Source: an uncultured Opitutaceae bacterium
GTDB lineage: Bacteria > Verrucomicrobiota > Verrucomicrobiia > Opitutales > Opitutaceae
DNA: 64,000 nt
Reading direction: 5' to 3'
Assembly: GCA_903890485.1 (NCBI GenBank)
Contig: CAITBM010000009.1
Span: 1 to 64,000 of the forward strand
The notes under the pieces were generated by a model. That model was given only the letters and a program-made list of their open reading frames with translations. It did not search any database and was not told where the DNA came from. The position numbers and the translations under genes were made by a program. The number at the start of each line of letters is the position of its first letter. The stretch's first letter is position 1. This document shows positions 15,475 through 39,126 of the stretch, in pieces.

Positions 15475-17946
15475 TTACAGCCGCGTCCTGAGATCGCCAG
15501 GGAGCAGGTCGACCGCAAGGTCCCTGAGCTGGGGGTCCGGCACCTCGAGCTGAAGCGCATGGGAGATGACCAGGAGGTTGAAAAGGGCGCCGGTCGTGAG
15601 CGACCTGAGCCGGGGCCCGCTCGCCTCCCTGAGGCACCGCTCGACCTGCGCCTTCGCCAGTTCAACCTTTCCGGCCTGGGCGAGCACGATCGCAAGGCTC
15701 ACACGGCGGTCCCACGCCAGGTAGCGGTCCCCACCGGCCTGCAGCCGGCCCAGGAGCAGCTCGAGCGAGGCTCCCGCGGCCGTGGCGTCGCCGCGGCCCA
15801 GCTGGATCTCGATCCGCGCCGCGAGCGCCCCGACATCCCCGGGAAAGCGCCGCAGGAGCTCATCGACCGGCGCCGCCCGCTCCATGTCCCCCATCTCGAC
15901 CAGGTACTCGGCAATCCGGGCAGCCGCCAACGCAGGGGCCTGGTCATCGACGACCTCAAAGACCTGGACTGACTGTCCCTCGAATCCCCCCCCGACCGGC
16001 ATCTGGTAGGGTACCGGCCTAAGCCACGGGGGAAGCTTCAGGAGCCTGAGCTCTCCGGCAAAGAAGTTCGGGCGCGTGGAGAACCGCGGGTCCAGGTAGC
16101 GCCGGGCAAACTCGTCAAAGAAGGGATCCCAGGAGGGGATGACGATGAAGCGGACGCCGCGGGCGCGCAGGGTGTTCTGGGCCTCCTCCATCGTGAGCGC
16201 AGCGGCGATGTTGAGCGCGGCGCCAAACCCGACGCTGTTGTCGGGCGAGAACGAGCCGATCCCGCGCAGGCCCCCGAAAAACCAGAGAGCCGGCGTCACG
16301 TTCGGGGGCGCATAGACGACCGCGCCCTCTTCGCCGGCCCGCTTCGCAAGCCAGTGCGCCAGGTGCCGCTCGACCAGGGTCTCGGACTCCCTCGGGGTGA
16401 GGGAAAGCTCCGTCCCCCTGCCTGGGTGGGGAAGGAGCTGGCCGACGCCCAGGGCAAGCGAAGCGAGGATCCCGGCGGCGCCCAGCAACCGGGAGACACC
16501 CCAGGATCCCCCAGCCAGGAAAAGGACCGCCCCAAGCGCAAGGAGCGAGGCGTCGAGCGTGCTCCACCAGCTGAGTTCCCGAAAGGCGAAGAGAGCGGCC
16601 ACAACGACCGGACCGAGCGCGAGGGCTACCATCGCGCGCAGCCGCGGGCCCGAATCGGCACGCAGGAGCGCCAAGGCCGCGGCTACAGCCAAGAGGAGAG
16701 GGGCGAAAACCGCCCCGACCGCCGAGGTCACGGAGTCGTGGAGAAGCCAATCCCAGGTGCTCGCGGCTACCGGGGCCCCGGGCAACCGGCTTAACCTTGC
16801 CCACGAGAGGTCCTGCACCAGAAAGGCCCAGCTTCCGGTACCCAGGATCATGCCCGCAACGGCACAGATCCCCAGGACCGACAGGAGCAGCACAGCCCCC
16901 TCTCGCCTTCCCGGCTTCGGTGACACGCCCCGTATCCGGGCGATGAGGCCACCCAAGAATTCACCGGCACACACCCAGCCCAGTCCCTGCACCGGGTGCA
17001 CGGTGTCCTGGCCCAGCGAGCCCATGTCCGAGGGAAAATATTCCGCGAGATAGGCGGCAAGAACCGTGGCTCCCCCGACATAGCCCCAGGTCCTCCAGGC
17101 CCGCGCCGACCGGACCGGGTCGGACTCCTGCGGCCCAGCGCGGCGCCCGATCCAGGCCTGAAGGAGCGCCCCAAGGACCAGGCCCAGGATCACGGGGACT
17201 TGGAGCATGGGGTTGACCCAGACGCCCAGCCCGCCGGCAATCCCCGCCGCCGCAAACCACGCCGCGGGCGCGCCGGCCTTGTCCCCGGGACCGGGAGCCA
17301 GGCGCCAGGCGCCGGCCAGGACCAGGAGGATCGACACGAGGGCGCACCCGTCCGACAGGCCCTGCGTCCCGGGCATGCCAGGCAGGAAGCCCGCCGCAAA
17401 CGGGTAGAAGCCCGCGAGACCCACCGACACGGCCGCCGCGGCAAGGCCGCCCCATATAGCCCAAACCAGGGCGGTGGCGGCCGCGAGGAGGAGAGCGTGG
17501 AGGATCGGATCGGCCCAAAGCGCCGCCTTTTCCACGGAGATCCCGATCGGAACCCCGGTCGCCGCGTGGTGGGCCCAGGCGAGGAGGCCCAGGAACCCGC
17601 GGTAGGGCGAGGAAGCCGAGACCGGGTGCCCGCCCGGCGCGTTCTCGGCGTCCGTGTGGCGCACCCGGAGGGTTCCCGTGGAAAGCATCTGCTGCGTCTG
17701 GGCGATCCACTGGAAGCTCTCGAGGTTTCCCTCCGGCACCATGAGCTCGCGCTGGCCGCCGGAGTAGCCCGTGGGCGAGCGCCCGTCGGCCTGGTCGGCC
17801 GGCCCGGCGCGGCCCGGGAGTAGGGAGAGCGCATCCACCCGCGCAACGCGCACGGCGTCGATCCAGAGGATGAAAGCCAGGGCGCACAGGGGGACAATCC
17901 CCCACAGGCGGGTCAATTTCCTAGGGAGTGGGCCGGGCCGGGGCAT
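15475..17946 (-). CDS. Polytopic GT-C-like membrane protein with soluble C-terminal and TPR-like region (paralogue 1)
   Basis: 823 residues. After a basic N-terminus (PRPGPLPRKLTR) come about a dozen hydrophobic segments to roughly residue 510, then a soluble domain, then a helical repeat resembling TPR in the last ~130 residues. The first outer loop carries LRVRHTDAENAPGGH and SPYRGFLG, like the acidic first loop of GT-C glycosyltransferases such as oligosaccharyltransferase STT3 or PMT. I see no canonical WWDxG motif. It is clearly paralogous to the 29275-31740 product. Function is inferred: transfer of a lipid-linked sugar to an exported acceptor. It diverges from a giant FG-GAP gene. The start, preceded by AACCCCCCC, is set by the membrane topology; the frame stays open upstream. 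Confidence 0.65.
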   Translation of the reverse strand: MPRPGPLPRKLTRLWGIVPLCALAFILWIDAVRVARVDALSLLPGRAGPADQADGRSPTGYSGGQRELMVPEGNLESFQWIAQTQQMLSTGTLRVRHTDAENAPGGHPVSASSPYRGFLGLLAWAHHAATGVPIGISVEKAALWADPILHALLLAAATALVWAIWGGLAAAAVSVGLAGFYPFAAGFLPGMPGTQGLSDGCALVSILLVLAGAWRLAPGPGDKAGAPAAWFAAAGIAGGLGVWVNPMLQVPVILGLVLGALLQAWIGRRAGPQESDPVRSARAWRTWGYVGGATVLAAYLAEYFPSDMGSLGQDTVHPVQGLGWVCAGEFLGGLIARIRGVSPKPGRREGAVLLLSVLGICAVAGMILGTGSWAFLVQDLSWARLSRLPGAPVAASTWDWLLHDSVTSAVGAVFAPLLLAVAAALALLRADSGPRLRAMVALALGPVVVAALFAFRELSWWSTLDASLLALGAVLFLAGGSWGVSRLLGAAGILASLALGVGQLLPHPGRGTELSLTPRESETLVERHLAHWLAKRAGEEGAVVYAPPNVTPALWFFGGLRGIGSFSPDNSVGFGAALNIAAALTMEEAQNTLRARGVRFIVIPSWDPFFDEFARRYLDPRFSTRPNFFAGELRLLKLPPWLRPVPYQMPVGGGFEGQSVQVFEVVDDQAPALAAARIAEYLVEMGDMERAAPVDELLRRFPGDVGALAARIEIQLGRGDATAAGASLELLLGRLQAGGDRYLAWDRRVSLAIVLAQAGKVELAKAQVERCLREASGPRLRSLTTGALFNLLVISHALQLEVPDPQLRDLAVDLLPGDLRTRL

Positions 17947-18050
17947 GGGGGGGTTAAAGAGAATGCGGAACGGGAAAGCTCGGGGGCCATTGAAATGCCG
18001 CGGGCCCGCGGCGCAAGGCCTGTCGGGACGGAGGCCCTCCGATCGCGCAC

Positions 18051-18079: not shown

Positions 18080-18092
18080 TGGCCCCGGCCCC

Positions 18093-21000
18093 ATGGCATA
18101 CCCAATACCGAAGCGCCGCGCCCGATTCGGGCACGCGAAACGCGTCGCGGTCGTGGTGCTTGCCGCGTTCGGCTGCCTCGTCGCGGCACAGGGGGCGGTG
18201 CCGGCCCCGGACCCGGCCCTCGCCTCCAGGCCGCTCCCCGCCCCGTCCCATCCCCGGGGCAAGACGATGTTCACCCTCCTCTCCCCCGAGGAGACCGGGG
18301 TCAGGGTCGAGAACCCCTACGACGACACGCGCATGTGGGGGGAGCTCTACCCGGAGCTCGCCGACGGGGCGATCGGGACGGGAGTGGCCATCGGCGACTT
18401 CGACAACGACGGACGGCCCGACCTGTTCGTGGTCACCAAGACCAGGGGGTGCCGCCTGTTCCGGAACCTGGGAAGCTACCGCTTCGAGGACGTAACCGCT
18501 AAGGCGGGCGTGGGGGCCACGCCCGGCATCTGGAATACGGGGGCCACCTTTGTCGACGTGAACAATGACGGCCTTCTCGACATCTACGTCTGCCGCTTCA
18601 ACGCCCCCAACCTGCTCTACATTAACCAGGGCGACGGCACCTTCAAGGAGATGGCCCATTCCTACGGGCTCGACGTGGTCGACGCGTGCGGGATGGCGTA
18701 CTTCGCCGACTACGACCGCGACGGCTGGCTCGACGTGTTCATCCAGACGAACGTCCTCGACAACAACCGGCACCCGGAGGGCCAGCGCAACCACCTCTTC
18801 CACAACAACGGCAACGGGACCTTCACCGAGGTGACCGAGAGCGCGGGGATCCTGGGCGAGGCGCACGGGCACTCGGCCCAGTGGTGGGACTACGACGGCG
18901 ACGGCTGGCCGGACCTCTACGTCGCCAACGACTTCGCGGCCCCGGACGTCCTCTACCACAACAACCGCGACGGGACCTTCACGAACGTGATCAACCAGGT
19001 CGTCCCCCACATGCCGTACTCCTCCATGGGGAGCGACGTGGGCGACGTCCTGAACGACGGGAACGTGGCGCTCCTGGCCACGGACATGGCCGCGACAACC
19101 CACGAAAAGGACATGCGCGGGATCGCCGACTCCCGCAGCCGCACGACCGAGGATCCCGAGCACCCCGAGGCCGCGCCCCAGTACGAGCACAATGCCCTCT
19201 ACCTGCCGACCGGCACCGGCCGGTGCCTTGAGGCCGCCACCCTTGCCGGGCTCGATGCCACCGACTGGACCTGGTCACCCCGCCTGGAGGACCTGGACAA
19301 CGACGGGCGCCTGGACCTCTTCACCACCAACGGCATGTACCGGGAGGCCCACAACGTGGACCTCCTTGCCCGGCAGGCCGCGGCCGACACGCCCGCCGAG
19401 CGGCTCCGGATCATGAAGGCAAGCCCGGTGTTCGCCGAGACCCACCTCGCCTACCGCAACCTGGGCGACCTCCGCTTTGAGGAGACGGGCGCCTCCTGGG
19501 GCCTCAACCAGAAGGGAGTCTCGTTCGGGAGCGCGCTCGGCGACCTCTCCGGGGACGGCAACCTGGACATCGTCACGGTCGACTACGACGGGGGAGTCAC
19601 GATCCTGCGCAACGACTGCGACAGCGGCCACCGGGTGGACATAGACCTGAGGGGATCTGTTTCGAACCGCTTCGGGATCGGGGCCGTGGTGCGCGTGGAA
19701 AGCGCCCTCGGCACGCAGGTGCGCCCCCTCCTGGCGGCGCGGGGCTACATGTCGAGCAGCGAACCCATGGTGCACGTGGGCCTGGGCCCGGACACGCAGA
19801 TCCGCCGGATGACCGTCACCTGGCCCAGCGGCCGCGAGCAAGTCTTCGAGAACCTGCCCGCCGACAGGCGGTACACCGTGACCGAGCCCTCCAGCCCCTA
19901 CCGACCCCCGGCGCAACCGCCAGCCGACAGGCCCCTCTTCGTCGACGCCACGGTGGAGGCGGGGTTCTCGGTTGCGTCGCACGAGGACGCGGTCGATGAG
20001 ACGGCCTCCCAGAGGCTCCTGCCCTTCCGGCTCAATCGGCGCGGCCCCGCCTTGGCCGTGGGCGGCGTGAACGGCGACGGCCTTGACGAGGTCGTTGTCG
20101 GGGGCACGACCCTTGATCCCGTTCGGATCCTGCGGCGCTCGACCTCGGGATCGTTCGATCCCTCGGGGGCCCCGTCCGATCCCCTCCCTGCGGACGGCGG
20201 GCCCCTCCTGGTCTTTGACGCCGCCGGCCAGGGCCACGCCGACCTGCTGGTGACGATCGGGGGCAACGCGCTTCCCTCCGGTTCGCCCGACTACGAGCCC
20301 CGCCTGTACCTGGGCGACGGGCACGGGGGCTATTCACCCGCAGCCCCGGGCGCCCTCCCCCGCTTCACCTCGAGCGTCGGGGCCGTTGCCGCCGCCGACT
20401 TTGACCACTCCGGCCGCCTCGGCCTCTTCCTCGGCGGGCGCGTCCAGACCGGGCAGTATCCGCTTCCGCCGCAAAGCGCCCTCTGGGCCAACCGCGGAGG
20501 CACGTTCGAGGACGTGACGGACGCGCTCTGCCCCGGCCTTCGCGAGATCGGGATGGTGACCTCGGCGCTCTGGACGGACTTGGACGGCGACGGGTGGCCC
20601 GACCTCGTCCTCACCCTCGAGTGGGGCACCGTGAAGCTCTTCCACAACAACCAAGGCAAGGGGTTCTCCGACTGGTCCGAAAAGGCGGGGTTCGCCTCCG
20701 CCGGGGTCGGCTGGTGGACCTCGGTGGCCGCCGCGGACTTCAACGGCGACGGCCGCCTGGACTACGTGGTCGGCAACGTGGGCCTGAACACCCCCTACCG
20801 TGCGAGCCCTGAGCATCCCTCACTTCTCTTCTACGGGGATTTTAACGGGGACGGAAGTGAACCCCAGCTTGTGGAGGCCCTGTACGAGGGGGACCGCCTC
20901 TACCCGCGGCGCACCCGCCGGGACCTGGGAGCCGCGATCCCCTCGGTCCTCAGGCATTTCCCGAGGAACAACGCCTATGCCCATGCGACGCTGGAACAGA

Positions 21001-21698
21001 TCCTGGGCGCAGCCCCCCTGGCGGCCGCCCAGCGGTTTGCGGCGACGGAATTCCGGAGCGGCGTCTTCCTGAGCCAGCCCGACGGCACCTACCGCTTCAG
21101 CCCGCTTCCCCGGATCGCCCAGATCGCGCCGATCCAGGGGCTTGTCGCCGGGGATTTCCTTGGGGAGGCCCATGCCGACATCTACGCCGTCCAGAACTCC
21201 TATGCCCCCATCCCCTTTGTCGGGCGCTTCGACGGCGGCCTGAGCCAGCTTCTAAGGGGCGACGGCAAGGGTGGGTTTGCCCCGGTATCCCCGGCCGAAA
21301 GCGGGCTTCTTGTGCCCAGGGACGCCAAGGCCCTTGCGGTCCTCGACCTCGCCCGCGACGGGTGGCCGGGCTTTCTCGTGAGCCGCAACAACGACACGAC
21401 GCTCGCCTTCCGCAACCGGGCGGCCGCGGGCCACCACTCCCTCTGCGTGCGCCTAAAGGGGCCCAAGGGAAACCCCACCGCCGTTGGGGCCCGGGTGACC
21501 CTCACCTACGCGGACGCAACGACGCGCGTCTCGGAGGTCTACGCGGGCTCGGGCACCATGAGCCAATCCTCCCCGGACTGCTTCTTTGGCTATCCCGACT
21601 CAAATCCGCCCATAAGCATTTCGGTGAGGTGGCCCCTGGGCGCGGTTTCCTCGTACCCGGTCCCCGAGGGATCGACCCACCTCCTCCTCTCGCCCTAG
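18093..21698 (+). CDS. Giant exported FG-GAP/ASPIC-UnbV (CRTAC1-like) protein 1
   Basis: 1201 residues. A signal peptide (HAKRVAVVVLAAFGCLVAAQGA) fixes the start at CCCGGCCCC-ATG. FG-GAP/VCBS calcium-binding repeats fill about 90-500 (DFDNDGRPDLFVV, DVNNDGLLDIYVC, DYDGDGWPDLYVAN). An ASPIC/UnbV domain covers about 525-600 (FGIGAVVRVES, MTVTWPSGREQVFENLPADR). A second FG-GAP series covers about 640-1110, and a second ASPIC-like domain ends the protein. It therefore looks like two CRTAC1 units joined. Such propellers bind partners or ligands outside the cell; no enzyme site is visible. It diverges from GT-C-like paralogue 1 across 146 bases, and its stop codon interlocks with that of the FKBP gene. 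Confidence 0.82.
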   Translation: MAYPIPKRRARFGHAKRVAVVVLAAFGCLVAAQGAVPAPDPALASRPLPAPSHPRGKTMFTLLSPEETGVRVENPYDDTRMWGELYPELADGAIGTGVAIGDFDNDGRPDLFVVTKTRGCRLFRNLGSYRFEDVTAKAGVGATPGIWNTGATFVDVNNDGLLDIYVCRFNAPNLLYINQGDGTFKEMAHSYGLDVVDACGMAYFADYDRDGWLDVFIQTNVLDNNRHPEGQRNHLFHNNGNGTFTEVTESAGILGEAHGHSAQWWDYDGDGWPDLYVANDFAAPDVLYHNNRDGTFTNVINQVVPHMPYSSMGSDVGDVLNDGNVALLATDMAATTHEKDMRGIADSRSRTTEDPEHPEAAPQYEHNALYLPTGTGRCLEAATLAGLDATDWTWSPRLEDLDNDGRLDLFTTNGMYREAHNVDLLARQAAADTPAERLRIMKASPVFAETHLAYRNLGDLRFEETGASWGLNQKGVSFGSALGDLSGDGNLDIVTVDYDGGVTILRNDCDSGHRVDIDLRGSVSNRFGIGAVVRVESALGTQVRPLLAARGYMSSSEPMVHVGLGPDTQIRRMTVTWPSGREQVFENLPADRRYTVTEPSSPYRPPAQPPADRPLFVDATVEAGFSVASHEDAVDETASQRLLPFRLNRRGPALAVGGVNGDGLDEVVVGGTTLDPVRILRRSTSGSFDPSGAPSDPLPADGGPLLVFDAAGQGHADLLVTIGGNALPSGSPDYEPRLYLGDGHGGYSPAAPGALPRFTSSVGAVAAADFDHSGRLGLFLGGRVQTGQYPLPPQSALWANRGGTFEDVTDALCPGLREIGMVTSALWTDLDGDGWPDLVLTLEWGTVKLFHNNQGKGFSDWSEKAGFASAGVGWWTSVAAADFNGDGRLDYVVGNVGLNTPYRASPEHPSLLFYGDFNGDGSEPQLVEALYEGDRLYPRRTRRDLGAAIPSVLRHFPRNNAYAHATLEQILGAAPLAAAQRFAATEFRSGVFLSQPDGTYRFSPLPRIAQIAPIQGLVAGDFLGEAHADIYAVQNSYAPIPFVGRFDGGLSQLLRGDGKGGFAPVSPAESGLLVPRDAKALAVLDLARDGWPGFLVSRNNDTTLAFRNRAAAGHHSLCVRLKGPKGNPTAVGARVTLTYADATTRVSEVYAGSGTMSQSSPDCFFGYPDSNPPISISVRWPLGAVSSYPVPEGSTHLLLSP

Positions 21699-22672
21699 GG
21701 GGGCGAGGCATCGCCGAGGGCGATGTAGTAGACGAGAGGGGAGCCGCGCTCAACCCCCTCGGGCCAGTCGCCCTCGCCAAACGAAAGAGACGGGGGAAGG
21801 ACGAAAACGGCAGTGGAGCCGACCGTCATCATCTGGAGCCCCTCCATGAGCCCCGGCATCAGGCCCTCCATACGGACCCGGGTCCTCTCCGTGCACAGCT
21901 GCGGGATCCGCGTGCGGCCGTCGGCGGAGGTCGTGACGCAGGAAAAGACAATCCAGTCTCCCGGCCTCGGCCGTATGCCATTGCGTCCGGTCTGCACGTT
22001 GTAGCCGAGGCCGCTCTCGGAGATCTGGAGCCCGAGGCGCCTGCGCATCCCCTTGAAGTACCGAGCCAGCCGCACCTTGGGGTCGACCGACGCCCCACCC
22101 TGCTGCGCCGCCTCCGCCACCCGGCGGCCCATTTCACCGACAAGCCTCGTGGCAACGTCGTCCATGGGGACGGGATGGCCTCCCATGGCCGCCTTGATCC
22201 CGTCCAGGAATGCGCCGAGTTCGGCCTCGGTCCAGCCGAGCTCCGCGAAGTGCGCGGAGAGGGCGAATGAGGAGCCGAACGCCGAAAAGGCCGCCGAGGG
22301 ATACTCGCGTGGGGCTCCGGTGGCCTGCGGGCCCCCGGCCATCCGGCGCGCCAGTTCTCCGGCAAGCTCCTGAGCGGCCTGGTCCATCGGGAACGGGCGG
22401 CCCTGGAGCGACGCCCGGATCCCCTCAAGGAACGCGTCAAGCTGCGCCTCGGTCCAGCCAAACTGCACAAAACGGCCCGATCCCGCGAGCGAGGAGCCGA
22501 GCGCCGCATAGGCGGCAGGCGGATAGTCGAGGACTCCCATCCCTGGAGCCGAATCCGGCCGGGTGACCGCCGTCGCGGGATCCCCACCCAGGGGCACAAG
22601 GGTACCGGAGGAAATGCCGGTGCAGAGCGTCCCGAGGAAAAGGGTGCAGGATAGGAAAAGTCGCGTCCTCAT
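21695..22672 (-). CDS. Exported FKBP-type peptidyl-prolyl isomerase with duplicated N-terminal module
   Basis: 325 residues beginning with a signal peptide (MRTRLFLSCTLFLGTLCTG). Two tandem copies of an FKBP N-terminal-like helical module lie at about 50-112 and 124-186 (FGWTEAQLDAFLEGIRA and LGWTEAELGAFLDGIKA). A C-terminal FKBP domain (about 222-320) contains GDWIVFSCVTTSADG, LMPGLMEGLQMMTVGSTAVF and LSFGEGD. It should act as a periplasmic proline isomerase or chaperone. The gene starts 11 bases after the Tat-exported FG-GAP gene and is probably its operon partner, perhaps helping fold it or the giant FG-GAP proteins. The frame is open upstream of the chosen ATG but overlaps the neighbouring gene. 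Confidence 0.78.
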   Translation of the reverse strand: MRTRLFLSCTLFLGTLCTGISSGTLVPLGGDPATAVTRPDSAPGMGVLDYPPAAYAALGSSLAGSGRFVQFGWTEAQLDAFLEGIRASLQGRPFPMDQAAQELAGELARRMAGGPQATGAPREYPSAAFSAFGSSFALSAHFAELGWTEAELGAFLDGIKAAMGGHPVPMDDVATRLVGEMGRRVAEAAQQGGASVDPKVRLARYFKGMRRRLGLQISESGLGYNVQTGRNGIRPRPGDWIVFSCVTTSADGRTRIPQLCTERTRVRMEGLMPGLMEGLQMMTVGSTAVFVLPPSLSFGEGDWPEGVERGSPLVYYIALGDASPP

Positions 22673-22683: not shown

Positions 22684-24987
22684 CTAGGCGCCCGAACCCG
22701 CGGGCCAGCTGAAGCTCCGGAGCTCGAAGCGCTCGGCTTGCTCCTCTCCCTCCCTCACATGGTAGCACGAGTTAATCTCGAGATCCCTCAGCACCTGGGT
22801 TGTTCCTGACACCGGCCAGAAGATCTCCACCCGCCGGATGTGGCTTGCCCTGCCAAGGCCTATCTCCTGGCGGAGCGTGGACGAGCCGAAGCTGGCCCCG
22901 GTGCCGACGATCCGGTGGATTTCGCGGTCCCCATCCTGCGGGTCGACGGCCACGACCTTGACCCGGGCGCCGATCGCCGCGCGGTTGGTCTTCACGCCCT
23001 GGAGCTGGAGCTTCAGGAAATTGTTGCCGTGTCCGGGGTTCGCGAAAAGCTGCCTCTGGTAGATGTCCGCCTCAACCGCGCCGCCAACCACTGAGAAGAT
23101 GTCCTGGGTCCCGCTGTTGTTGATGTCCCCAAAGGCGATCCCGTGACCCTTCTGGATCTGGCCGAAGCCGCCGGAGGTCGTGACATCCTGGAAACGCCGT
23201 CCCCTGTCGTTGCGGAACATCTTGTTCGGAATCAGCACCATCAGGTCGGGGTTGCCCGTGCCCATGTAGAAGTCGAGCCACCCGTCGTTGTCCAAGTCCC
23301 CGAAATTTGCGCCCATGGAAAGCAGGAGCCGATCAAGACCCGCCTCCTTCGTGACATCCGCGAACGTTCCATCGCCGTTGTTGCGGTAGAGCTTGGTCCG
23401 CTGCCCGGCGAACGGCAGGCCCAGGGCCTCCGCGGCCAGGTCGCCCACGTCCTCGATCGCATAACCGGCAACCAGGATGTCGGGCCATCCGTCGTTGTTG
23501 TAGTCCCAGAACCAGCAGGTGAAGGTCGAGGGCGGCTCGGTGACGCCCGCCTGCTCGGCCACGTCGGTAAACCTCCAGCGCGCCTTGGGCGAAGGGTCAC
23601 CCCCCACGGGTCCGTCGTTGCGGAGCAACATCTTCGGGCCGTCAAGCTTCGAGAGGTAAAGGTCGGGCCTCCCGTCGTTATTGTAGTCGGCGCTCACGAC
23701 CCCCTTGAAGTACCCGACGAAGGCGACACCGTTCTCGGCGGCGCATTCGGTGAAGGTTCCATCCCCGTTGTTGCGGAACAGCTCGCACGGGTTCTTGTCG
23801 GCCCCCTTTGACTCGTTCGCGAAGTAGAGGTCGAGCCACCCGTCGTTGTTGTAGTCGAACCACGCCGCGGACTGGGTCGGCGCGAACCGCAGGAGGCCCG
23901 CCTCCTCGGTCACGTCGGTGAACGTGAAATCCCCGTTGTTGCGCAGAAGGGAGCTTGGGTAGTGGCCCTCCGCCCCCATCCAGGCACCGCGCAGCACAAG
24001 GATGTCCATGAAGCCGTCGTTGTTGTAGTCGCAGTGGATGAGGTTCAGCCCGCCCGTCAGCCCCATGAGCCCGGCCTCCTCCGTCCGCTCCGTGAACGTC
24101 CCGTCGCCGTTGTTTCGGAAGACTCGGATCTGGTCCTCGACGCCCCAGGAGGAAACCATCACGTCCAGGAACCCGTCGTTGTCTAGATCCTCAAGGACGA
24201 TGCCCCCTGCAAGGCCCTGGAAGTCGAGCCCCACGCTCGACGCGACGTCCGGGAAGTGCTTGATGTCGTAGTCCGACGCGAAGTGTTCGGGACCGATCAG
24301 CCACTGGGAGGGAACCTTGTCGGGGTAATCGCCCAGCGTCATGTAGGCGATGTTGATCAGCCACCGCGCCCTCAAGTCCCCGGGATACTTGGTCAGGAGG
24401 TCCTTCAACACCTCGACGGCCCCGCGTGAGCCCCGCTGCAGCGTGTGGACGCCCTTGCCCGTGATCGGAAAGAGGCAGGATTCGACGTTGTGCCTCAGGA
24501 CACAGTTCTCGTTCTCCCCTAGCCGCAGGTAGCACATGGCCTTGAACGTGAGCCATTCAGGCTCCCCGCGCTGCTCCTTGGGCACCTTCATCTCCTCCAG
24601 GGTCGACTCGATGACATCGAGGTTCGAGAGGGCAACGTCGGCTGCGCCGGAGTCCAGCAACTGCCAGGCAAGTTGCATCCGGAGCTTGAGCCGCTTGTCC
24701 GGCTGGAGCTCCTTCGCAAGCAGGTCGCGAAGCACGCCGACCTGCGCCTTGTTGCGGAATGGGTTCTTGAGCGGATCGGCCTCCCGGGTGATCTTGGCGA
24801 GGAGAGCCGCCATCCTTCGGTTGCTCTCGGGTTGAGCCTTGGAGGCAGCCGCGGGCAGGCCTCCGGAGGGCGCTGCCAGGGCGGCCAGCGGCCAGGCCCA
24901 CGCCGCGGCCACGCCAAGGGATCCCCCGAGAGCGGTCCTCAGGAATCCCCTGCGATCGAGCTGAAGGCGCCTCTCGACCTCACCCAT
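22684..24987 (-). CDS. Tat-exported FG-GAP/ASPIC-UnbV (CRTAC1-like) protein
   Basis: About 767 residues. A Tat signal (DRRGFLRTALGGSLGVAAAW) is followed by a helical region to about 210 without recognisable repeats. At least seven FG-GAP/VCBS repeats follow (DLDNDGFLDVMVSSWG, DYNNDGFMDILVLRG, DYNNDGWLDLYFAN, DLDNDGWLDFYMGTGNPDL), then a C-terminal ASPIC/UnbV domain (AIGARVKVVAVDP, IRRVEIFWPVSG). Tat export implies folding in the cytoplasm, which is notable for a calcium-binding propeller. An upstream in-frame ATG at 25062 would lengthen the region before the twin Arg by 25 residues. It is first of a two-gene unit with the FKBP gene. Function is unknown; surface binding is inferred. Confidence 0.8.
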   Translation of the reverse strand: MGEVERRLQLDRRGFLRTALGGSLGVAAAWAWPLAALAAPSGGLPAAASKAQPESNRRMAALLAKITREADPLKNPFRNKAQVGVLRDLLAKELQPDKRLKLRMQLAWQLLDSGAADVALSNLDVIESTLEEMKVPKEQRGEPEWLTFKAMCYLRLGENENCVLRHNVESCLFPITGKGVHTLQRGSRGAVEVLKDLLTKYPGDLRARWLINIAYMTLGDYPDKVPSQWLIGPEHFASDYDIKHFPDVASSVGLDFQGLAGGIVLEDLDNDGFLDVMVSSWGVEDQIRVFRNNGDGTFTERTEEAGLMGLTGGLNLIHCDYNNDGFMDILVLRGAWMGAEGHYPSSLLRNNGDFTFTDVTEEAGLLRFAPTQSAAWFDYNNDGWLDLYFANESKGADKNPCELFRNNGDGTFTECAAENGVAFVGYFKGVVSADYNNDGRPDLYLSKLDGPKMLLRNDGPVGGDPSPKARWRFTDVAEQAGVTEPPSTFTCWFWDYNNDGWPDILVAGYAIEDVGDLAAEALGLPFAGQRTKLYRNNGDGTFADVTKEAGLDRLLLSMGANFGDLDNDGWLDFYMGTGNPDLMVLIPNKMFRNDRGRRFQDVTTSGGFGQIQKGHGIAFGDINNSGTQDIFSVVGGAVEADIYQRQLFANPGHGNNFLKLQLQGVKTNRAAIGARVKVVAVDPQDGDREIHRIVGTGASFGSSTLRQEIGLGRASHIRRVEIFWPVSGTTQVLRDLEINSCYHVREGEEQAERFELRSFSWPAGSGA

Positions 24988-31799: not shown

Positions 31800-31828
31800 T
31801 TGACTACCCGGAGGGCCGTTCGTCCTAC
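31800..31828 (+). promoter_or_regulatory. TTGAC-N17-GTCC promoter-like element before giant FG-GAP gene 2
   Basis: TTGACT (31800-31805) and GTCC (31822-31825) lie 40 and 18 bases before the ATG. The surrounding sequence closely matches that before giant gene 3, including an upstream GGCCAAAC-like stretch and CCTTGACTA. An ATG this near to a -10 position implies a very short leader. Confidence 0.5.
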
Positions 31829-31839
31829 TGCGACCGAAG

Positions 31840-34800
31840 ATGCCTGCCGATCTGAACCGCCAGCCCCGGGTCGAGACGTCCGCGGGGCGTCCGTCCCGGC
31901 TCCTGCTCCTGGGGGTTTTGGTCCTGTGCACGCCGGGCCGGGCGGCGCAGGACCCGGGCTCTATAGTGAGTGCGCCCTTCGAGAACCGTCCTGCCCCGCG
32001 GGGCAGGACGATGTTCACGGTTCTCCCTGCCGAACAGACGGGATTGAAGACGGAGAACCCCTACGACGACCCGAGGATGTGGGCCGGGCTCTACCACGAG
32101 TTCGAGGACGGCTCAATCGGCACCGGGGTGGCGATCGGAGACTATGACGGCGATGGAAGGCCCGACGTCTTTGTGGTCTCAAAGACCAAGGGCTGCCGCC
32201 TCTTCCGTAACCTGGGGGGCTACCGCTTCGAGGACGTGACGGCAAAGGCGGGGGTCGGCGCCGAGGCAGGAGTCTGGAACCTGGGGGCGACCTTCGTCGA
32301 CATCAACAACGACGGGCTCCTGGACATCTACGTCTGTCGCTTCAACGCCCCCAACCTCCTCTATGTGAACCAGGGCGACGGGACCTTCAGGGAGATGGCC
32401 CACGCCTACGGGCTCGACGTGAAGGACGCGAGCGTCATGGCGGCGTTCTGCGACTACGACCGCGACGGGGCGCTCGACCTGTACCTCACCGTGAACCTGC
32501 TCGACAGCGAGAAGCACCCGAGCGGCCAGAGGGGCTACCTCTTCCACAACAACCGGGACGGCACGTTCACGAACGTCACCGAGCAGGCCGGGATTTCCGG
32601 CGAGACGCAGAGCCACTCGGCCACGTGGTGGGACTTCGACAACGACGGGTGGCCCGACCTCTATGTCGCCAACGACTACGGGGTCCCGGACAAGCTCTAC
32701 CACAACAACCGGGACGGAACCTTCACCAACGTGATCGACCAGGTCCTCCCCCACACCTCGTCCTTCTCCATGGGCTCGGACCTGGGGGACGTGAGGAACG
32801 CGGGCCGGATCGACCTGCTGGTGGCCGACATGGCGGCCAGCACCCACCAGAAGGACCAGCGGTTCATGGCGGGCGAGCGCGAGGGGATGCGGGAGACCTC
32901 GGCGCCCACGCCAAAGTACAACCGCAGCGCCCTCTATATCAACACGGGCGCGGGCCGCCTCCAGGAGGCGGCGATCCTCGCGGGATTCTCGGCCACCGAC
33001 TGGACCTGGTCGGTCCGCTTCGAGGACCTGGACAACGACGGCCGGCAGGACCTCTTTGTGACGAACGGCTTCAACCGAAACCCCGACTCCGACGTGATCG
33101 AGCGGGCAAGCCATGCCGGCTCGTCGGCCGAGCGCATCCGCATCCTGCGCGACACCCCCATGCGCCTGGAAAGCCACTTCGCGTTCCGGAACGCGGGCGA
33201 CCTCGAGTTTGAGAACGTGAGCTCGGAGTGGGGACTCGACCAGCGGGGGGTCTCCTTCGGTGCCGCATTCGGGGACCTGGGTGGAAACGGCAACCTCGAC
33301 TTGGTCTATACGAACTACGAGGGCGGGGTCACGCTCCTCAGGAACGACAGTGACCGGGGCCACCGCGCGAACATCTACCTGAGGGGCACCACCTCGAACC
33401 GGTTTGGGGTGGGTGCCATCGTTCGGGTTGAGAGCTCCCTTGGGGTCCAGGTCCGCCAGCTCGTGCTGGCGCGGGGCTACCTCTCGAGCAGCGAGCCCAT
33501 GCTCCATTTCGGATTCGGCCAGGACACGGTGATCCGGCGCATGGAGGTCACCTGGCCGAACGGCCGCATCCAGACTTTCGAGAACCTGCCGGTGGACAGG
33601 CGCTACACCGTGACCGAGCCCTCCGGGGCCTTCCCGCTGCCACCCGATCCCGTGCGGCCCCCCGCCCTGTTTCGCGAAGTGGCCGAAGAAAGCGGCCTGG
33701 CGGCCCGGACGCACGAGGAGGAGGTCTCGGAAACCTATCTCCAGCGGCTGATCCCGGTGCGCCTGAACCGAAGGGGCCCGTCGCTCGCGGTCGGGGACAT
33801 CCTCGGAGGTGGCCGCGATGACGTCGCCGTGGGGGGCACGACGCTTGACCCCTTGCGGCTGCTGGCCTCCTCCGGCCCGGGCCGCTACGCGGAGGCCGCG
33901 TCCCCGGTCCCGAGCGAGAAGGCTCCAGCCGACGACGGCCCGGTCCTGCTCTTCGACGCGGCCGGGGCCGGACACGCCGACCTCCTGGTGACCAAGGGGG
34001 GAAATTCCCTCCCTGCGGGCGCCCAGGAGTACCAGCCGAGGCTCTACCTGAACGACGGCCACGGCGGCTACCGTCCGGCGCCCGAGGACGCGCTTCCCCC
34101 TCTTCCCATCAATGCCGGGGCCGTTGCCGCCGCGGATTTCGAGCACTCGGGTCACCTCGGGGTCTTCATCGGGGGGCGGGTTCTGCCGGGAGGCTACCCC
34201 ATGGCCCCGCGAAGCGCGCTGCTGGCCAACCGCGGGGGAAAGTTCGAGGACGTGACGGATGCCCTGGCCCCGGGGCTGCGCGAGCCCGGCATGGTGACCG
34301 GGGCGGTGTGGAGCGACGTCGACGGCGACGGATGGCCCGACCTGCTGCTGACCCTGGAATGGGGCGGCGTGAAATACTTCCACAACACCCAGGGCAAGGG
34401 ATTTGAGGACTGGTCGGACAGGGCGGGGTTTTCCGCGGCCGGCACCGGCTGGTGGACCTCGATCGCCACGGCCGACTTCAACGGGGACGGCAGGCCGGAC
34501 TTTGTCGTCGGAAACCTGGGGCTGAACACCCCGTACCAGGCCGACCCCGCCCACCCCGCGCTCCTCTTTTCCGGCGATTTCAAGGGAGGGGGCTCCCCTC
34601 AGCTCGTCGAGGCGTACTATGAGGGCGACAAGCTCTACCCGCGGCGGGGCCGAAAGGCCCTCGGGGCCTCGGTGCCCTCGGTGCTGAAGCGCTTCCCGAA
34701 CAACGAGGCCTACTCGAAGGCCACCCTGGGCGAAATCCTCGGCGAGGAGAAGCTCGCCCATGCCCGGCGGTTCGCGGCGACCGAGTTCAGGAGCGGCGTG

Positions 34801-35436
34801 TTCCTGAGCCAGGCAGACGGGACCTACCGGTTTGAGCCCCTGCCCCGGGTGGCCCAGATCTCGCCGTTCCAAGGGGTCGTGGCGGGCGACTTCGAGGCGA
34901 GCGGCCACGCCGACATCTTCGCCGTCCAGAACAGCTACGCGCCTGTCCCCTCCGTGGGTCGCTTCGACTCGGGGTTGGGGCAGCTCCTTCGCGGCGACGG
35001 ACGGGGGCATTTCACCGCGGTGGGTCCCGCGGAGAGCGGGCTCGTGGTGCCCGGCGACGCCAAGGCGCTCGCCGTCCTCGACCTGGACCAGGACGGGCGG
35101 CCTGACTTCCTGGTCACGCGCAACAACGACTCGGCGCTCGCGTTCCATCACGCGAAGGCCGCCGGCCGCCACGCCTTCAAGGTCATCCTGCGGGGGCCCC
35201 CGGGCAATCCCACGGGGGTCGGGGCGCGTGTCTCCGTGCTCGGGGCCAACGGCTCCCGGGAGACCGCGGAGGTGTGCGCGGGCTCGGGCTACTACAGCCA
35301 GTCGACTCCGGCATGTTTTTTTGGATACGCGGAGGGTTCCCCCCCGGAGAAGATCCGGGTGAGGTGGCCCTCCGGCGCCGTGACCGAGCACCCGTTTTCA
35401 CCCGGGAGCACGGTCCTCACCCTGGCGTCGCCCTAG
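31840..35436 (+). CDS. Giant exported FG-GAP/ASPIC-UnbV (CRTAC1-like) protein 2
   Basis: 1198 residues with the architecture of giant protein 1. A signal peptide (RLLLLGVLVLCTPGRAAQ) begins after a 19-residue basic N-region. FG-GAP repeats cover about 85-490 (DYDGDGRPDVFVVSKTKG, DINNDGLLDIYVC, DFDNDGWPDLYVANDYG). A first ASPIC/UnbV domain is at about 517-592 (RFGVGAIVRVESS, EVTWPNGRIQTFENLPVDR), then a second FG-GAP series and a C-terminal ASPIC-like domain (GVGARVSVLGANGSRETAEV). It is closest to giant protein 3, which follows 66 bases later, so these two look like a tandem duplication. It diverges from GT-C-like paralogue 2. Role inferred: extracellular binding or scaffold protein. Confidence 0.82.
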   Translation: MPADLNRQPRVETSAGRPSRLLLLGVLVLCTPGRAAQDPGSIVSAPFENRPAPRGRTMFTVLPAEQTGLKTENPYDDPRMWAGLYHEFEDGSIGTGVAIGDYDGDGRPDVFVVSKTKGCRLFRNLGGYRFEDVTAKAGVGAEAGVWNLGATFVDINNDGLLDIYVCRFNAPNLLYVNQGDGTFREMAHAYGLDVKDASVMAAFCDYDRDGALDLYLTVNLLDSEKHPSGQRGYLFHNNRDGTFTNVTEQAGISGETQSHSATWWDFDNDGWPDLYVANDYGVPDKLYHNNRDGTFTNVIDQVLPHTSSFSMGSDLGDVRNAGRIDLLVADMAASTHQKDQRFMAGEREGMRETSAPTPKYNRSALYINTGAGRLQEAAILAGFSATDWTWSVRFEDLDNDGRQDLFVTNGFNRNPDSDVIERASHAGSSAERIRILRDTPMRLESHFAFRNAGDLEFENVSSEWGLDQRGVSFGAAFGDLGGNGNLDLVYTNYEGGVTLLRNDSDRGHRANIYLRGTTSNRFGVGAIVRVESSLGVQVRQLVLARGYLSSSEPMLHFGFGQDTVIRRMEVTWPNGRIQTFENLPVDRRYTVTEPSGAFPLPPDPVRPPALFREVAEESGLAARTHEEEVSETYLQRLIPVRLNRRGPSLAVGDILGGGRDDVAVGGTTLDPLRLLASSGPGRYAEAASPVPSEKAPADDGPVLLFDAAGAGHADLLVTKGGNSLPAGAQEYQPRLYLNDGHGGYRPAPEDALPPLPINAGAVAAADFEHSGHLGVFIGGRVLPGGYPMAPRSALLANRGGKFEDVTDALAPGLREPGMVTGAVWSDVDGDGWPDLLLTLEWGGVKYFHNTQGKGFEDWSDRAGFSAAGTGWWTSIATADFNGDGRPDFVVGNLGLNTPYQADPAHPALLFSGDFKGGGSPQLVEAYYEGDKLYPRRGRKALGASVPSVLKRFPNNEAYSKATLGEILGEEKLAHARRFAATEFRSGVFLSQADGTYRFEPLPRVAQISPFQGVVAGDFEASGHADIFAVQNSYAPVPSVGRFDSGLGQLLRGDGRGHFTAVGPAESGLVVPGDAKALAVLDLDQDGRPDFLVTRNNDSALAFHHAKAAGRHAFKVILRGPPGNPTGVGARVSVLGANGSRETAEVCAGSGYYSQSTPACFFGYAEGSPPEKIRVRWPSGAVTEHPFSPGSTVLTLASP

Positions 35437-35502: not shown

Positions 35503-38500
35503 ATGACCACGGCCGCCGCAGCGCGTAGCCAGCGACCCGCTGTTGAGCACGCGGCGCGGGCGGGGGTGCGCGGCTGGATCTGGGGTGTACTCCTTGGCGT
35601 GGCGCTCACAGCCGCCCAAGCGGAACCCGCTGGCTCGATCACGAGCGAAGCCTTCGCCCCCAACCCCCACCCTCGCGGCAAGACGCTTTTCGTCGAATTG
35701 CCCGCCTCGGAGACCGGGGTCGTCACGGAGAACAAGTTCAACGACCCGAGGATGAAGAACGAGCTCTACCAGGAGTTTGAGACCTCCTCGATCGGGACCG
35801 GGGTGGCGATCGGCGACTACGACGGCGACGGCCGGCCCGACATCTTCGTCGTCAGCAAGACCGAGGGCTGCAGGCTGTTCAGGAACCTGGGGGGCTACAA
35901 GTTTGAGGACGTGACCGAGAAGGCCGGCGTCGGCGCCGAGCCCGGCGTCTGGAACCAGGGGGCCGCGTTTGTCGACATCAACAACGACGGGCGGCTCGAC
36001 ATCTATGTCTGCCGGGCGAGGGCGCCCAACCTCCTGTACGTGAACCAGGGCGACGGGACCTTCAAGGAGATGGCCCACGCCTACGGGCTCGACGTGAACG
36101 ACTCGAGCGTCATGGCGGCGTTCTGCGACTACGACCGCGACGGCTACCTGGACGTCTACATTGCGACCAACGTCCTGAACGCGACCGAGCACCCCGACGG
36201 CCAGCGGGGATACCTTTTCCACAACAACCGCAACGGGACGTTCACCAACGTGACCGACTCGGCCGGGATCGGCGGGCCCTCGCAGAGCCACTCTGCCACC
36301 TGGTGGGACTTCGACAACGACGGCTGGCCCGACCTCTACGTCGCCAACGACTACGGTTTCCCGGACAAGCTCTACCACAACAACCGCGACGGGACCTTCA
36401 CCGACGCGGTCGACCGGGTGCTTCCCCACACGTCCTTCTCGTCCATGGGCGCCGACCTGGGCGACGTGAACAACGACGGCCTCATCGATTTCTTCTCGGC
36501 GGACATGGCGGTTTTAAGCCACGAGAAGGACCAGCACGACTTGGCCACCGCGCGCTCCCGGCTTGAGGACCCCAAGTCCCCGGGCACGGCCCCCAAGTAC
36601 AACCACAACGCGCTCCTGATCAACACCGGCACCGCGCGGCTGGCCGAGGCGGCCTACCTCTCCGGCCTCGCTGCCACCGACTGGACCTGGTCTCCCCTCT
36701 TCGAGGACTTTGACAACTGCGGCCGGCTGGACCTTTTCGTCACCAACGGGTTCCCCAGGGACCCGGGCATCGACGTGCAGCATCGACTGATGAGCGCCGA
36801 AAGCCCCGTCGAGCGGGTGAAGATCATGTACGCGAGCCCGCCCCGGGTTGAAAAGCACCTGGCGCTCAGCAACCGCGGCGACCTTCATTTCGAGGACGTG
36901 AGCGAGGCGTGGGGCCTCGACAAGCGCGGGATCAGCTTCGGGACCGCCGTAGGCGACCTCTCCGGGGACGGCAACCTGGACATCGTCTACACGAACTTCC
37001 ACAGCGGGGTGACGCTGCTTCGCAACGACTGCGACACCGGGCACAAGGTGAACGTTTACCTCCGGGGAACAGTCTCCAACCGCTACGGGGTGGGCGCCGT
37101 GGTCAAGGTCGAGAGCGCGAAGGGAGTGCTCGCCCAACAGCTCGTCCTGGCGCGCGGGTACATGTCGACCAACGAGCCCATGCTCCACTTTGGGTTGGGC
37201 GAGGAGACGCTGGTGCGCAAGATGACGGTCACCTGGCCAAGCGGCCACGTCCAGGTCTTCGAGAACCTGCCCGCGGACCGGCGGTACACCGTGACGGAGC
37301 CCGACAAGGCGATCGCGATCCCCGCGGACCCCCCGAAGCCCAGGGGCCAGTTCGAGGAGGTGAGCGCCGCCGTGGGCGCCTCCTTCAGGGCGCGCGAGGA
37401 CAGTGTCGACGAACTCTACGGGCAGAAGCTTCTGCCGCACCGCCTGAACGCGCGGGGCCCGGCCCTGGCGGTCGGCGACATCTTTGGAACGGGAGCCGAC
37501 GACGTGGCAATCGCCGGCACGACCCTGGACCCGCTCCGGATCCTTAAGTGGGCGAAGTCCGGGTCCTACTCTCCAGCCGATTCCTCCGCGATTGGCGGGA
37601 CGCCGGCGCTCGACGACGGCCCCCTCCTCCTCTTCGACGCCACCGGTTCCGGGTTCGAGGATCTCCTGGTGACCAAGGGCGGAAACGCGGCACCGGCCGG
37701 CGCGCCCGACTACCAGCCCAGGATCTACCTGAACGACGGGCACGGGGGGTTCCATGCGGCCCCCGACGATCTCCTGCCGCAGCTCTCGGTGAACGCCGGG
37801 GCGGTCGCCGCCGCCGATTTTGACCACACCGGTCGCCTGGGCCTCTTCATCGGCGGTCGCGTGGTGACGGGCAATTACCCGAGCGCCCCCCAGAGCGTCC
37901 TCCTGGCCAACCGCGGCGGAAAATTCGAGGACGTGACCGACTCCCTGGCCCCGGGGCTGCGCACCGTGGGCATGGTGACGTCGGCGCTCTGGACCGACGT
38001 GGACGGCGACGGGTGGCCCGACCTTCTCCTCGCTCTCGAGTGGGGCGGCGTGAAGTACTTCCACAACGCCCAGGGCAAGGGGTTCGAGGACTGGAGCGAG
38101 AAGGCGGGCTTCGCCGCGGCGGGCACCGGCTGGTGGACCTCGATCGCGGCGGCGGACTTTAACGGCGACGGCCGGATCGACTACGTGGTCGGCAACGTGG
38201 GGCTCAACACCCAGTACCGCGCCGACCCCGCCCACCCGGCGCTCCTTTTCTCCGGCGACTTCAAGGGAGGCGGAGGTCCGCCCCAGCTGGTCGAGGCGTA
38301 CTACGAGGGGGAGAAGCTGTTCCCGTGGCGCACGCGCCGCGACTTGGGGGCCTCCATCCCCTCCGTGCTGAAGCGCTTCCCCACGTTTGACGCCTACAGC
38401 CGTGCCACGCTTGCCGAAATCCTCGGCGCGGACCGGATTGCCAAGGCGCAGCGCTTTGCGGCGACCGAGCTGCGGAGCGGCGTCTTCCTGAGCCAGCCGG

Positions 38501-39126
38501 ACGGCACCTACCGCTTCGAGCCGTTGCCCCACATCGCGCAGATCTCGCCGCTCCAGGGTATGGTGGCCGGTGACTTCGACGGCTCCGGCCACCTGGGCCT
38601 CTACGCCGTCCAGAATTCCTTCGCCCCGATCCCCTCGGTCGGGCGCTTCGACGGGGGACTGAGCCAGCTGCTCCGCGGCGACGGCCACGGCCACTTCTCG
38701 CCGGTCACACCGCTGGAGAGCGGCCTGGTCGTGCCGGGCGACGCCAAGGCTCTGGCGATCGCGGACATCGGCCAGGACGGGTGGCCCGGCTTCGTGGTCA
38801 CCCGGAACAACGACACGACGCTTGTCTTCCGCAACCGCGGCGCCGCGGGCCATTCCCCGCTCAGGGTCACGCTCCGCGGCCCCAAGGGCAATCCGACCGC
38901 AGTCGGCGCCAGGATCACCGTGGAACTAGCGGACGGTTCTACGGAGAGTGCCGAGGTCTACGCCGGGTCGGGCTACTACAGCCAGTCGACCGCGGCGTGC
39001 TCCTTCGGCTACCCGGAGTCAAACCCCGCGACGAAGGTGAGCGTCCGGTGGCCCTCCGGCCAAGTGTCGGAAGCCGCCGTGCCGAGCAGGGCAACAGCGC
39101 TCACGCTTTCGGCACCTGGGCCATAG
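35503..39126 (+). CDS. Giant exported FG-GAP/ASPIC-UnbV (CRTAC1-like) protein 3
   Basis: 1207 residues and a near full-length paralogue of its upstream neighbour. The N-terminus (RGWIWGVLLGVALTAAQA) is a probable signal peptide after a long alanine-rich n-region. FG-GAP repeats (DYDGDGRPDIFVVSKTEG, DINNDGRLDIYVC, DFDNDGWPDLYVANDYG), an ASPIC/UnbV domain at about 522-596 (RYGVGAVVKVES, MTVTWPSGHVQVFENLPADR), a second FG-GAP series and a terminal ASPIC-like domain follow in order. NGT and NVT sequons occur in the repeats, which would matter only if the divergent GT-C-like protein were an N-glycosylase; that is speculative. The esterase-like gene lies tail to tail 14 bases beyond. Confidence 0.82.
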   Translation: MTTAAAARSQRPAVEHAARAGVRGWIWGVLLGVALTAAQAEPAGSITSEAFAPNPHPRGKTLFVELPASETGVVTENKFNDPRMKNELYQEFETSSIGTGVAIGDYDGDGRPDIFVVSKTEGCRLFRNLGGYKFEDVTEKAGVGAEPGVWNQGAAFVDINNDGRLDIYVCRARAPNLLYVNQGDGTFKEMAHAYGLDVNDSSVMAAFCDYDRDGYLDVYIATNVLNATEHPDGQRGYLFHNNRNGTFTNVTDSAGIGGPSQSHSATWWDFDNDGWPDLYVANDYGFPDKLYHNNRDGTFTDAVDRVLPHTSFSSMGADLGDVNNDGLIDFFSADMAVLSHEKDQHDLATARSRLEDPKSPGTAPKYNHNALLINTGTARLAEAAYLSGLAATDWTWSPLFEDFDNCGRLDLFVTNGFPRDPGIDVQHRLMSAESPVERVKIMYASPPRVEKHLALSNRGDLHFEDVSEAWGLDKRGISFGTAVGDLSGDGNLDIVYTNFHSGVTLLRNDCDTGHKVNVYLRGTVSNRYGVGAVVKVESAKGVLAQQLVLARGYMSTNEPMLHFGLGEETLVRKMTVTWPSGHVQVFENLPADRRYTVTEPDKAIAIPADPPKPRGQFEEVSAAVGASFRAREDSVDELYGQKLLPHRLNARGPALAVGDIFGTGADDVAIAGTTLDPLRILKWAKSGSYSPADSSAIGGTPALDDGPLLLFDATGSGFEDLLVTKGGNAAPAGAPDYQPRIYLNDGHGGFHAAPDDLLPQLSVNAGAVAAADFDHTGRLGLFIGGRVVTGNYPSAPQSVLLANRGGKFEDVTDSLAPGLRTVGMVTSALWTDVDGDGWPDLLLALEWGGVKYFHNAQGKGFEDWSEKAGFAAAGTGWWTSIAAADFNGDGRIDYVVGNVGLNTQYRADPAHPALLFSGDFKGGGGPPQLVEAYYEGEKLFPWRTRRDLGASIPSVLKRFPTFDAYSRATLAEILGADRIAKAQRFAATELRSGVFLSQPDGTYRFEPLPHIAQISPLQGMVAGDFDGSGHLGLYAVQNSFAPIPSVGRFDGGLSQLLRGDGHGHFSPVTPLESGLVVPGDAKALAIADIGQDGWPGFVVTRNNDTTLVFRNRGAAGHSPLRVTLRGPKGNPTAVGARITVELADGSTESAEVYAGSGYYSQSTAACSFGYPESNPATKVSVRWPSGQVSEAAVPSRATALTLSAPGP

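Follow-up and report, generated by a model that had tools for sequence, protein, structure and literature searches.

Oligosaccharyltransferases of the STT3, AglB and PglB class are known as enzymes, and a functional non-catalytic branch with a client of its own would, if real, be a case of their fold reused to recognise exported proteins. For AglB of Archaeoglobus fulgidus, PMC8342417 gives the active site as Asp47, Asp161 and His163 (of an Asp-His-His motif) and Glu360 (of a TIXE motif); the phylogeny of STT3 is among the subjects of PMC4973528. Here we describe such a putative branch, represented by two membrane proteins, MEM1 and MEM2, that are encoded in a stretch of 64,000 nucleotides (the window) from an uncultured bacterium of the Opitutaceae, a family of soil and water bacteria within the Verrucomicrobiota (assembly GCA_903890485.1, contig CAITBM010000009.1, positions 1 to 64,000). 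Each is transcribed away from a gene for a giant protein of about 1200 residues with FG-GAP repeats. Profiles and models suggest that the MEM family resembles AglB, PglB and STT3 in overall fold and order of motifs, with an AglB-like C-terminal domain, and its intact relatives keep the Asp, Asp-His-His and xIxE of the A. fulgidus enzyme. The clade found in the window is unlike them in lacking the active-site residues, in carrying a tail resembling tetratricopeptide repeats (TPR) and in its pairing with the giants. The reading that we favour, with a probability of roughly 0.55, is that this pseudo-oligosaccharyltransferase would serve, within a TonB uptake module, as the partner that docks or assembles a glycan-binding propeller at the inner membrane.

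Three other systems invite comparison. The O-mannosyltransferases TMTC1-4 join a membrane part of the glycosyltransferase C (GT-C) type to TPR tails. MEM is predicted to have the same succession of parts, and TMTC enzymes have specific exported proteins, cadherins among them, as their substrates (PMC11292533); unlike TMTC1-4, MEM shows no PMT/TMTC Pfam domain, either in the window proteins or, for 37 members, among the families listed (25 of 32), and TMTC-like proteins are encoded separately nearby, chiefly beside members of the intact clade. The giants share FG-GAP repeats and ASPIC domains with CRTAC1 and ASPIC-UnbV propellers, murine CRTAC1 being their best structural match, but they differ in their length, in having two ASPIC domains and in carrying FG-GAP repeats in both halves. 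For bacterial integrin-type propellers related to ASPIC/FG-GAP proteins, PMC3192720 describes the function as unknown, and an ASPIC/UnbV gene is listed without a role in tables of PMC3174227. Putative TonB-dependent carbohydrate utilisation loci from freshwater Verrucomicrobia are reported in PMC5615132. The present locus is like these and like SusC/SusD loci in that its module has a TonB receptor and genes for sugar degradation in the vicinity, and a Hymenobacter relative of the giants follows SusC/SusD; it is unlike SusC/SusD loci in its additional pseudo-oligosaccharyltransferase, and no SusD match was found among the window proteins scanned, which were part of its open reading frames. No description of the combination of MEM, giant and TonB receptor was found in open-licence PMC papers.

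The paired genes and their spacers are as follows; 'eroded' is defined below.

15475..17946, minus strand: MEM1, oligosaccharyltransferase-like membrane protein, eroded clade, 823 residues
17947..18092: divergent spacer between MEM1 and giant 1, 146 bp
18093..21698, plus strand: giant 1, predicted exported FG-GAP/double-ASPIC protein, 1201 residues (Pfam)
29275..31740, minus strand: MEM2, oligosaccharyltransferase-like membrane protein, eroded clade, 821 residues, start probably 31695
31696..31839: divergent spacer between MEM2 and giant 2, about 144 bp
31840..35436, plus strand: giant 2, predicted exported FG-GAP/double-ASPIC protein, 1198 residues (Pfam, structure model)
35503..39126, plus strand: giant 3, tandem copy, 1207 residues (Pfam)

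Kinship of MEM to oligosaccharyltransferases

MEM1 and MEM2 are 41% identical over 822 columns (BLASTP, 501 bits) and are the only two MEM copies found in the 3.1 Mb source assembly. An earlier interpretation of the same DNA from its letters and reading frames (the sequence-only reading) had described two membrane paralogues of about 820 residues lying head-to-head with FG-GAP/ASPIC proteins of about 1200 residues. The frames of MEM1, MEM2 and the giants at 18093, 31840 and 35503 all lie where it placed them, and the identity of the paralogues and the Pfam matches of the giants bear the description out. The start of MEM2 is probably the TTG at 31693-31695, because the first codon of its relatives L032 and L033 corresponds to residue 16 of MEM2.

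In profile scans, neither Pfam nor NCBIfam names MEM1 or MEM2. The STT3 profile, PF02516, is matched above its cut-off by the relative L042 (27.4 versus 24.5 bits, core residues 67-194) and at E≤0.5 by two of 37 relatives; across 145 Verrucomicrobiota genomes it gives weak matches in 10 and matches over the cut-off in four, the best at 25.3 bits. A profile of 37 relatives, taken without the TPR tail, finds AglB C-terminal domains as its sole PDB matches below E 1 (0.0021 and 0.02), and a core profile of the 27 canonical relatives finds the AglB C-terminal domains 3vu0 and 3vgp at E 0.0018 and 0.0046, the next PDB match standing at 0.74.

AlphaFold models of MEM2 and giant 2 were built from 5 and 8 sequences, respectively (window and L032/L033 proteins). 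For the MEM2 model, whose predicted local distance difference test (pLDDT) score is 50, Foldseek ranks AglB 7e9s first (E 2.1e-3, probability 1.00, template modelling (TM) score only 0.26), and VIA-align gives AglB 3waj as the best match to the membrane part, with model residues 112-457 on chain residues 80-425 (Z 9.8). The residue offset to 3waj is 32 at both ends of the alignment, and likewise 32 for 3wak, but differs at the N-terminal end for the AglB structures 7e9s (14) and 5gmy (26). Carried through, an offset of 32 would place AglB Glu360 at MEM2 residue 392 and Asp161/His163 at 193/195, only the ends of the structural alignment being known; the sequence alignment independently puts the AglB Glu column at 392 and the Asp and His columns at 194 and 196. 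The first-ranked VIA-align match, 6hd5 (Z 9.9), is confined to the TPR tail and is uninformative on the membrane part. Profiles and models suggest a GT-C-like fold for MEM, specifically that of the oligosaccharyltransferase class (STT3/AglB/PglB), which would sharpen the GT-C likeness that had been proposed from the letters.

Two further features of that proposal stood in part. The first-loop motif, (D/E)NAPxG..SPYR, is a true signature of the membrane-protein family, but is not the Asp motif that matches the metal site of AglB. The TPR-like tail is clear for the family (the A3 profile matches an engineered TPR protein at E 8e-19, best stretch 675-777), and the predicted MEM2 tail matches TPR proteins in structure comparison, whereas in the window proteins themselves Pfam finds a TPR_19 match below significance in MEM2 (E 0.085) and no TPR match in MEM1. 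By eye, the string WWDYG is absent from the translations of MEM1 and MEM2, and the YWEN of intact relatives may occupy its place. MEM relatives were found in neither the viral-contig scan nor the plasmid search.

Loss of active-site residues in one clade

The canonical relatives share the AglB pattern of an invariant first-loop Asp, Asp-His-His and xIxE. The alignment covers 82 of 85 MEM open reading frames (two G052 pseudogene fragments and one frame cut by a locus end were dropped), and the distant members from the genome search were fetched in part. Members that keep at least three of four motif residues are called intact and those that keep at most two eroded, a cut that was set after the alignment had been seen and that yields 36 intact and 46 eroded members. 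The first-loop Asp is present in all 36 intact but only 5/46 eroded members, the second Asp, that of Asp-His-His, in 35/36 versus 27/46, the His of that motif in 34/36 versus 9/46, and the Glu at the TIXE position in external loop 5 (EL5) in 36/36 versus 6/46. Both window proteins lack the first DXD Asp (EL1), the Asp-His-His and the TIXE/SVSE Glu (EL5), the corresponding alignment columns being occupied as listed here.

17719..17721, minus strand: MEM1 column of the first DXD Asp, Glu76 (ATG numbering)
17362..17370, minus strand: MEM1 column of Asp-His-His, Gly-Thr-Gln 193-195
16768..16770, minus strand: MEM1 column of the TIXE Glu, Val393
31510..31512, minus strand: MEM2 column of the first DXD Asp, Glu77
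31153..31161, minus strand: MEM2 column of Asp-His-His, Asp-Asp-Arg 194-196
30565..30567, minus strand: MEM2 column of the TIXE Glu, Ser392 (the 32-residue offset to AglB 3waj also puts Glu360 here)

A quick unrooted tree that retained the motif columns groups the eroded members into a single clade, with a support of 100 in the Shimodaira-Hasegawa-like approximate likelihood ratio test (SH-aLRT). The best explanation of these sequences is that the active-site residues were lost in the ancestor of the Opitutaceae clade that holds MEM1 and MEM2. With residues for metal binding and acceptor activation gone, an eroded MEM would most likely have lost the ability to transfer glycans.

The eroded members are under purifying selection. 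Five pairs from the clade have ratios of non-synonymous to synonymous substitution (dN/dS) of 0.14, 0.18, 0.20, 0.39 and 0.27, compared with 0.17 for a pair of giants and 0.12 for an intact MEM pair; these values are rough because dS is near or above 1 in most pairs, and 2.8 in the intact one. Within the eroded set 48 columns are conserved at ≥85%, and six positions are newly conserved (MEM2 numbering): W399, found in 46/46 eroded members where the commonest intact residue is Leu (17%), E588 (46/46 versus 42% of intact members), W532 (98% versus 25%), W606 (98% versus 39%), D607 (91% versus 25%) and P604. There is one clear MEM pseudogene with stops (G052:C3:2127 kb), and single stops occur in two other matches (G013 and G061).

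Pairing and co-inheritance with the giant proteins

Giants 2 and 3 are each 64% identical to giant 1. The three proteins have 10, 10 and 9 FG-GAP_3 stretches and two UnbV_ASPIC domains each, and their scores, taken over the whole protein, exceed the Pfam cut-offs. The model of giant 2 (pLDDT 55, better in residues 40-600) has murine CRTAC1 (9etn) as its best match, at E 5.4e-25 and a TM score of 0.69 by target length, followed at a great distance by a DDB1 complex (4.9e-9), whose propellers fit with a very large root mean square deviation; PVL lectins come at rank 5. On plasmids, the giant has its best relatives in Gemmatirosa (38%) and in Hymenobacter, of the Bacteroidota, where the relative (L121 8010-11285, 34% identity) stands directly after SusC/SusD and has a GH3 and a vanadium-dependent haloperoxidase downstream, the latter three genes on.

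Of the 46 eroded members, 43 have a giant within 3 kb, as against only one of the 36 intact ones (Fisher 1.6e-18, a probability that ignores shared ancestry), and 31 of these 43 neighbours are divergent, eight tandem and four convergent. Even if chance alone placed a giant beside 6% of members, a generous figure, 43/46 would be essentially impossible; seen from the side of MEM, the neighbourhood that had been suspected from one stretch of DNA goes well beyond chance. Three eroded members have no giant nearby: G003:706933, which has a 435-residue FG-GAP protein instead, and G036:C121 and G056:C79, both on short contigs. The sole intact member near a giant, G060:C27:19468-22032 (L116), lies 314 bp away from it, and two eroded members share its cluster.

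The two families also share their history pair by pair, as the earlier idea of a co-evolved envelope unit had supposed. Over 43 pairs (40 distinct giants, 20 genomes or records), MEM distances and adjacent-giant distances, compared across genomes only, correlate with a Mantel r of 0.886; swapping giants within genomes gives a mean r of 0.607 and a maximum of 0.859, and the observed value was reached in 0/5000 swaps. Among the genomes searched for ASPIC (PF07593), it was found in 18/18 of those that have an eroded member and in 1/22 others, of which six have only intact members and 16 have distant members, some of them without a motif check. Giants occur in 23 of 100 genomes of the family (E 1e-50) and in seven of 276 of the phylum (E 1e-60), all seven belonging to the same family, and MEM in 45/100 and 29/288, respectively. 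The pairing of MEM and giant is well supported by these observations.

That the membrane protein modifies the giants, which the sequence-only reading had offered as one option, is unlikely on present sequence evidence: AglB-type residues are missing throughout the giant-linked clade, and N-glycosylation of the giants was rejected as a candidate, with N-X-S/T counts of 2, 6 and 5 against shuffle means of about 5.5-5.9. Unlike the giants, the TonB receptor at 25232-29059 has 29 N-X-S/T sites versus 17 in shuffles (standard deviation 3.5).

TonB receptor and gene neighbourhood

Between the two modules lie three genes that had been named correctly from their translations; the twin-arginine translocation (Tat) signal ascribed to one of them is seen by eye only.

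21695..22672, minus strand: FKBP-type peptidyl-prolyl isomerase (PF00254 and PF01346 above cut-off; signal-like N-terminus by eye)
22684..25062, minus strand: FG-GAP/ASPIC protein, 792 residues (Pfam; Tat-like N-terminus, RRGFLRT, by eye only)
25232..29059, minus strand: TonB-dependent receptor, 1275 residues (Plug PF07715, E 8e-10; co-variation with MEM in relatives)

The receptor belongs to the unit, as had been guessed. A TonB receptor is found within 12 kb of 36/46 eroded versus 7/36 intact members, and MEM correlates with its nearest TonB receptor at r 0.56, versus a swap mean of 0.27 (0/5000; 32 pairs, 26 distinct receptors). The window also encodes the sugar-degradation families GH28, GH5 and GH130, so that a TonB receptor (Plug) has sugar-degradation genes nearby, the hallmark by which a TonB-dependent carbohydrate utilisation locus is recognised.

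Neighbouring proteins were compared between the two groups. Among 91 of 101 candidate neighbours of eroded members, the best 25 of 86 families include HATPase_c (6), LacI (6), GH43 (5), HisKA_3 (5) and SASA esterase (3); among 91 neighbours of intact members, a sample that ends within L052 and leaves out L053, L085-L094 and L106, the best 25 of 89 families include DegT aminotransferase (4) and, with three each, sugar epimerase, GDP-mannose dehydratase, HATPase_c and SSF transporter. On these small numbers, the eroded neighbourhood leans to glycan use and the intact one to glycan synthesis.

Several intact members adjoin TPR membrane proteins that we call TMTC-like after their N-terminal 'FDD..NP' motif; PMT_2 is matched below cut-off only, in two of those scanned. 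FG-GAP proteins had been considered as neighbours of the intact clade but were rejected, since the neighbours are TPR membrane proteins and the clusters had been merged by single linkage. In L035-L038, L041, L042 and L086-L089, intact oligosaccharyltransferase-like proteins lie near at least one TMTC-like protein, and these may be regarded as candidate bacterial protein-glycosylation loci. More generally, the catalytically intact Verrucomicrobiota relatives, several of them beside TMTC-like proteins, are candidate bacterial protein-glycosylation enzymes.

A proposed docking role for the putative pseudo-oligosaccharyltransferase, and its alternatives

The loss of the active site, the matched giant and the lean to glycan use suggest the re-use of an acceptor-binding membrane protein. 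Under this proposal an eroded MEM would retain its fold, a C-terminal domain that is periplasmic by analogy with AglB and the TPR-like tail, and would have become the heritable, paralogue-specific partner of a giant with CRTAC1-like propellers, in company with a TonB receptor and sugar-degradation genes. After export of the giant, the pseudo-enzyme could use its periplasmic face and tail, where acceptors would once have bound, to hold the giant at the inner membrane, either for folding, with the help of the FKBP isomerase, or for hand-over; the giant might then bind a polysaccharide ligand that the TonB receptor imports. A broader version, to which we give somewhat less than even odds, is that the whole clade turned from a protein-modifying enzyme into a paralogue-specific receptor or assembly factor at the inner membrane for giant propellers, each copy suited to its own giant and TonB receptor, and was multiplied to up to seven copies per genome as a sugar-uptake cassette. 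If a non-catalytic MEM is indeed a propeller partner, this would be a new role for the oligosaccharyltransferase fold and would suggest one for the large ASPIC/FG-GAP proteins, and the paralogue-specific pairs would be ready material for swap experiments.

Several observations weigh against the docking proposal or the kinship on which it builds. PF02516 matches neither MEM1 nor MEM2 in the Pfam scan, and only one of the 27 canonical relatives (E 0.01). The MEM2 model is weak at a pLDDT of 50, Foldseek finds zero matches to it at E 0.001, and the Z of 9.8 to 3waj falls in the range under about 13 that is weak for helical proteins. The loss of the residues and the pairing may each be one event. 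Linked genes that duplicate together yield matching trees without physical contact. From the side of the giants, the two families do occur mostly apart, the outcome that had been named as refuting their association: of 102 giant places listed, 66 do not hold the giant closest to a MEM within 2 kb, and five genomes have giants without a MEM above 200 bits. From the side of MEM this does not hold. In this count a giant was taken as used only if nearest to a MEM within 2 kb, at most seven candidates were scored per genome, seven second-fragment MEM rows and the last 13 giant rows were left out, and some of the 66 are tandem second giants or fragments; since a MEM gene is absent beside many giants, the partnership cannot be called obligate in cis. 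The neighbourhoods also overlap: lacto-N-biose phosphorylase accounts for 2/91 neighbours of intact members, and two eroded copies (L055 and L060) also have TPR proteins nearby that resemble the TMTC-like ones. Lastly, the acid of the first-loop (D/E)NAP stays acidic in 45/46 eroded members and could be used by a metal-independent enzyme.

This last point opens the main rival, that MEM is still a glycosyltransferase, metal-independent as other GT-C enzymes are, which adds an O- or C-linked sugar to its own giant with the (D/E)NAP acid as base. The predicted GT-C-type fold is consistent with it, as is the precedent of TMTC enzymes with their particular exported clients, but the first DXD position is not Asp in 41/46 eroded members, the residues matched to the EL2 and EL5 motifs of AglB have drifted, and the neighbours include catabolic genes; we consider it unlikely. 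Similarly improbable is that MEM and giant make no contact and are co-duplicated members of one utilisation unit, in which MEM would handle a lipid-linked or free oligosaccharide at the inner membrane by binding, sensing or transport. Shared loci with the TonB receptor and sugar-degradation genes speak for this, and co-duplication alone is able to give the Mantel signal; yet the correlation of MEM with the giant (r 0.886) exceeds that with the nearest TonB receptor (r 0.56), and the genes of MEM and giant, mostly not one operon because they are divergent in 31/43 cases, are kept together. That MEM is a decaying glycosyltransferase copy without special function beside common FG-GAP genes fits the lost residues, the pseudogene and the single stops but is already contradicted by constraint (five pairs with dN/dS of 0.14-0.39, and residues that became fixed in 46/46) and by 43/46 pairing over 20 genomes or records, and must be considered very improbable indeed.

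Other features of the window and its relatives

Near the eroded copies L055, L057, L065, L095 and L102 there is a second unit, made up of an FG-GAP-family protein of about 440-530 residues and a TPR-family protein of 480-600 residues; the Pfam scan of this unit covered L055 and one L065 protein. Antisense to giant 2, at 32179-35391 on the minus strand, runs a 1070-residue open frame that is taken as a by-product of GC-rich coding sequence. Beyond giant 3, at 39141-41447 on the minus strand, the window encodes a 768-residue hydrolase-like protein with weak matches only, to Peptidase_S9 and PHB-depolymerase, a relative of which adjoins giants in L032 and L062. Towards its end, at 59489-63524, a PSCyt1/DUF1587-1595 protein is directly followed by a DUF1552 (HXXSHH) protein.

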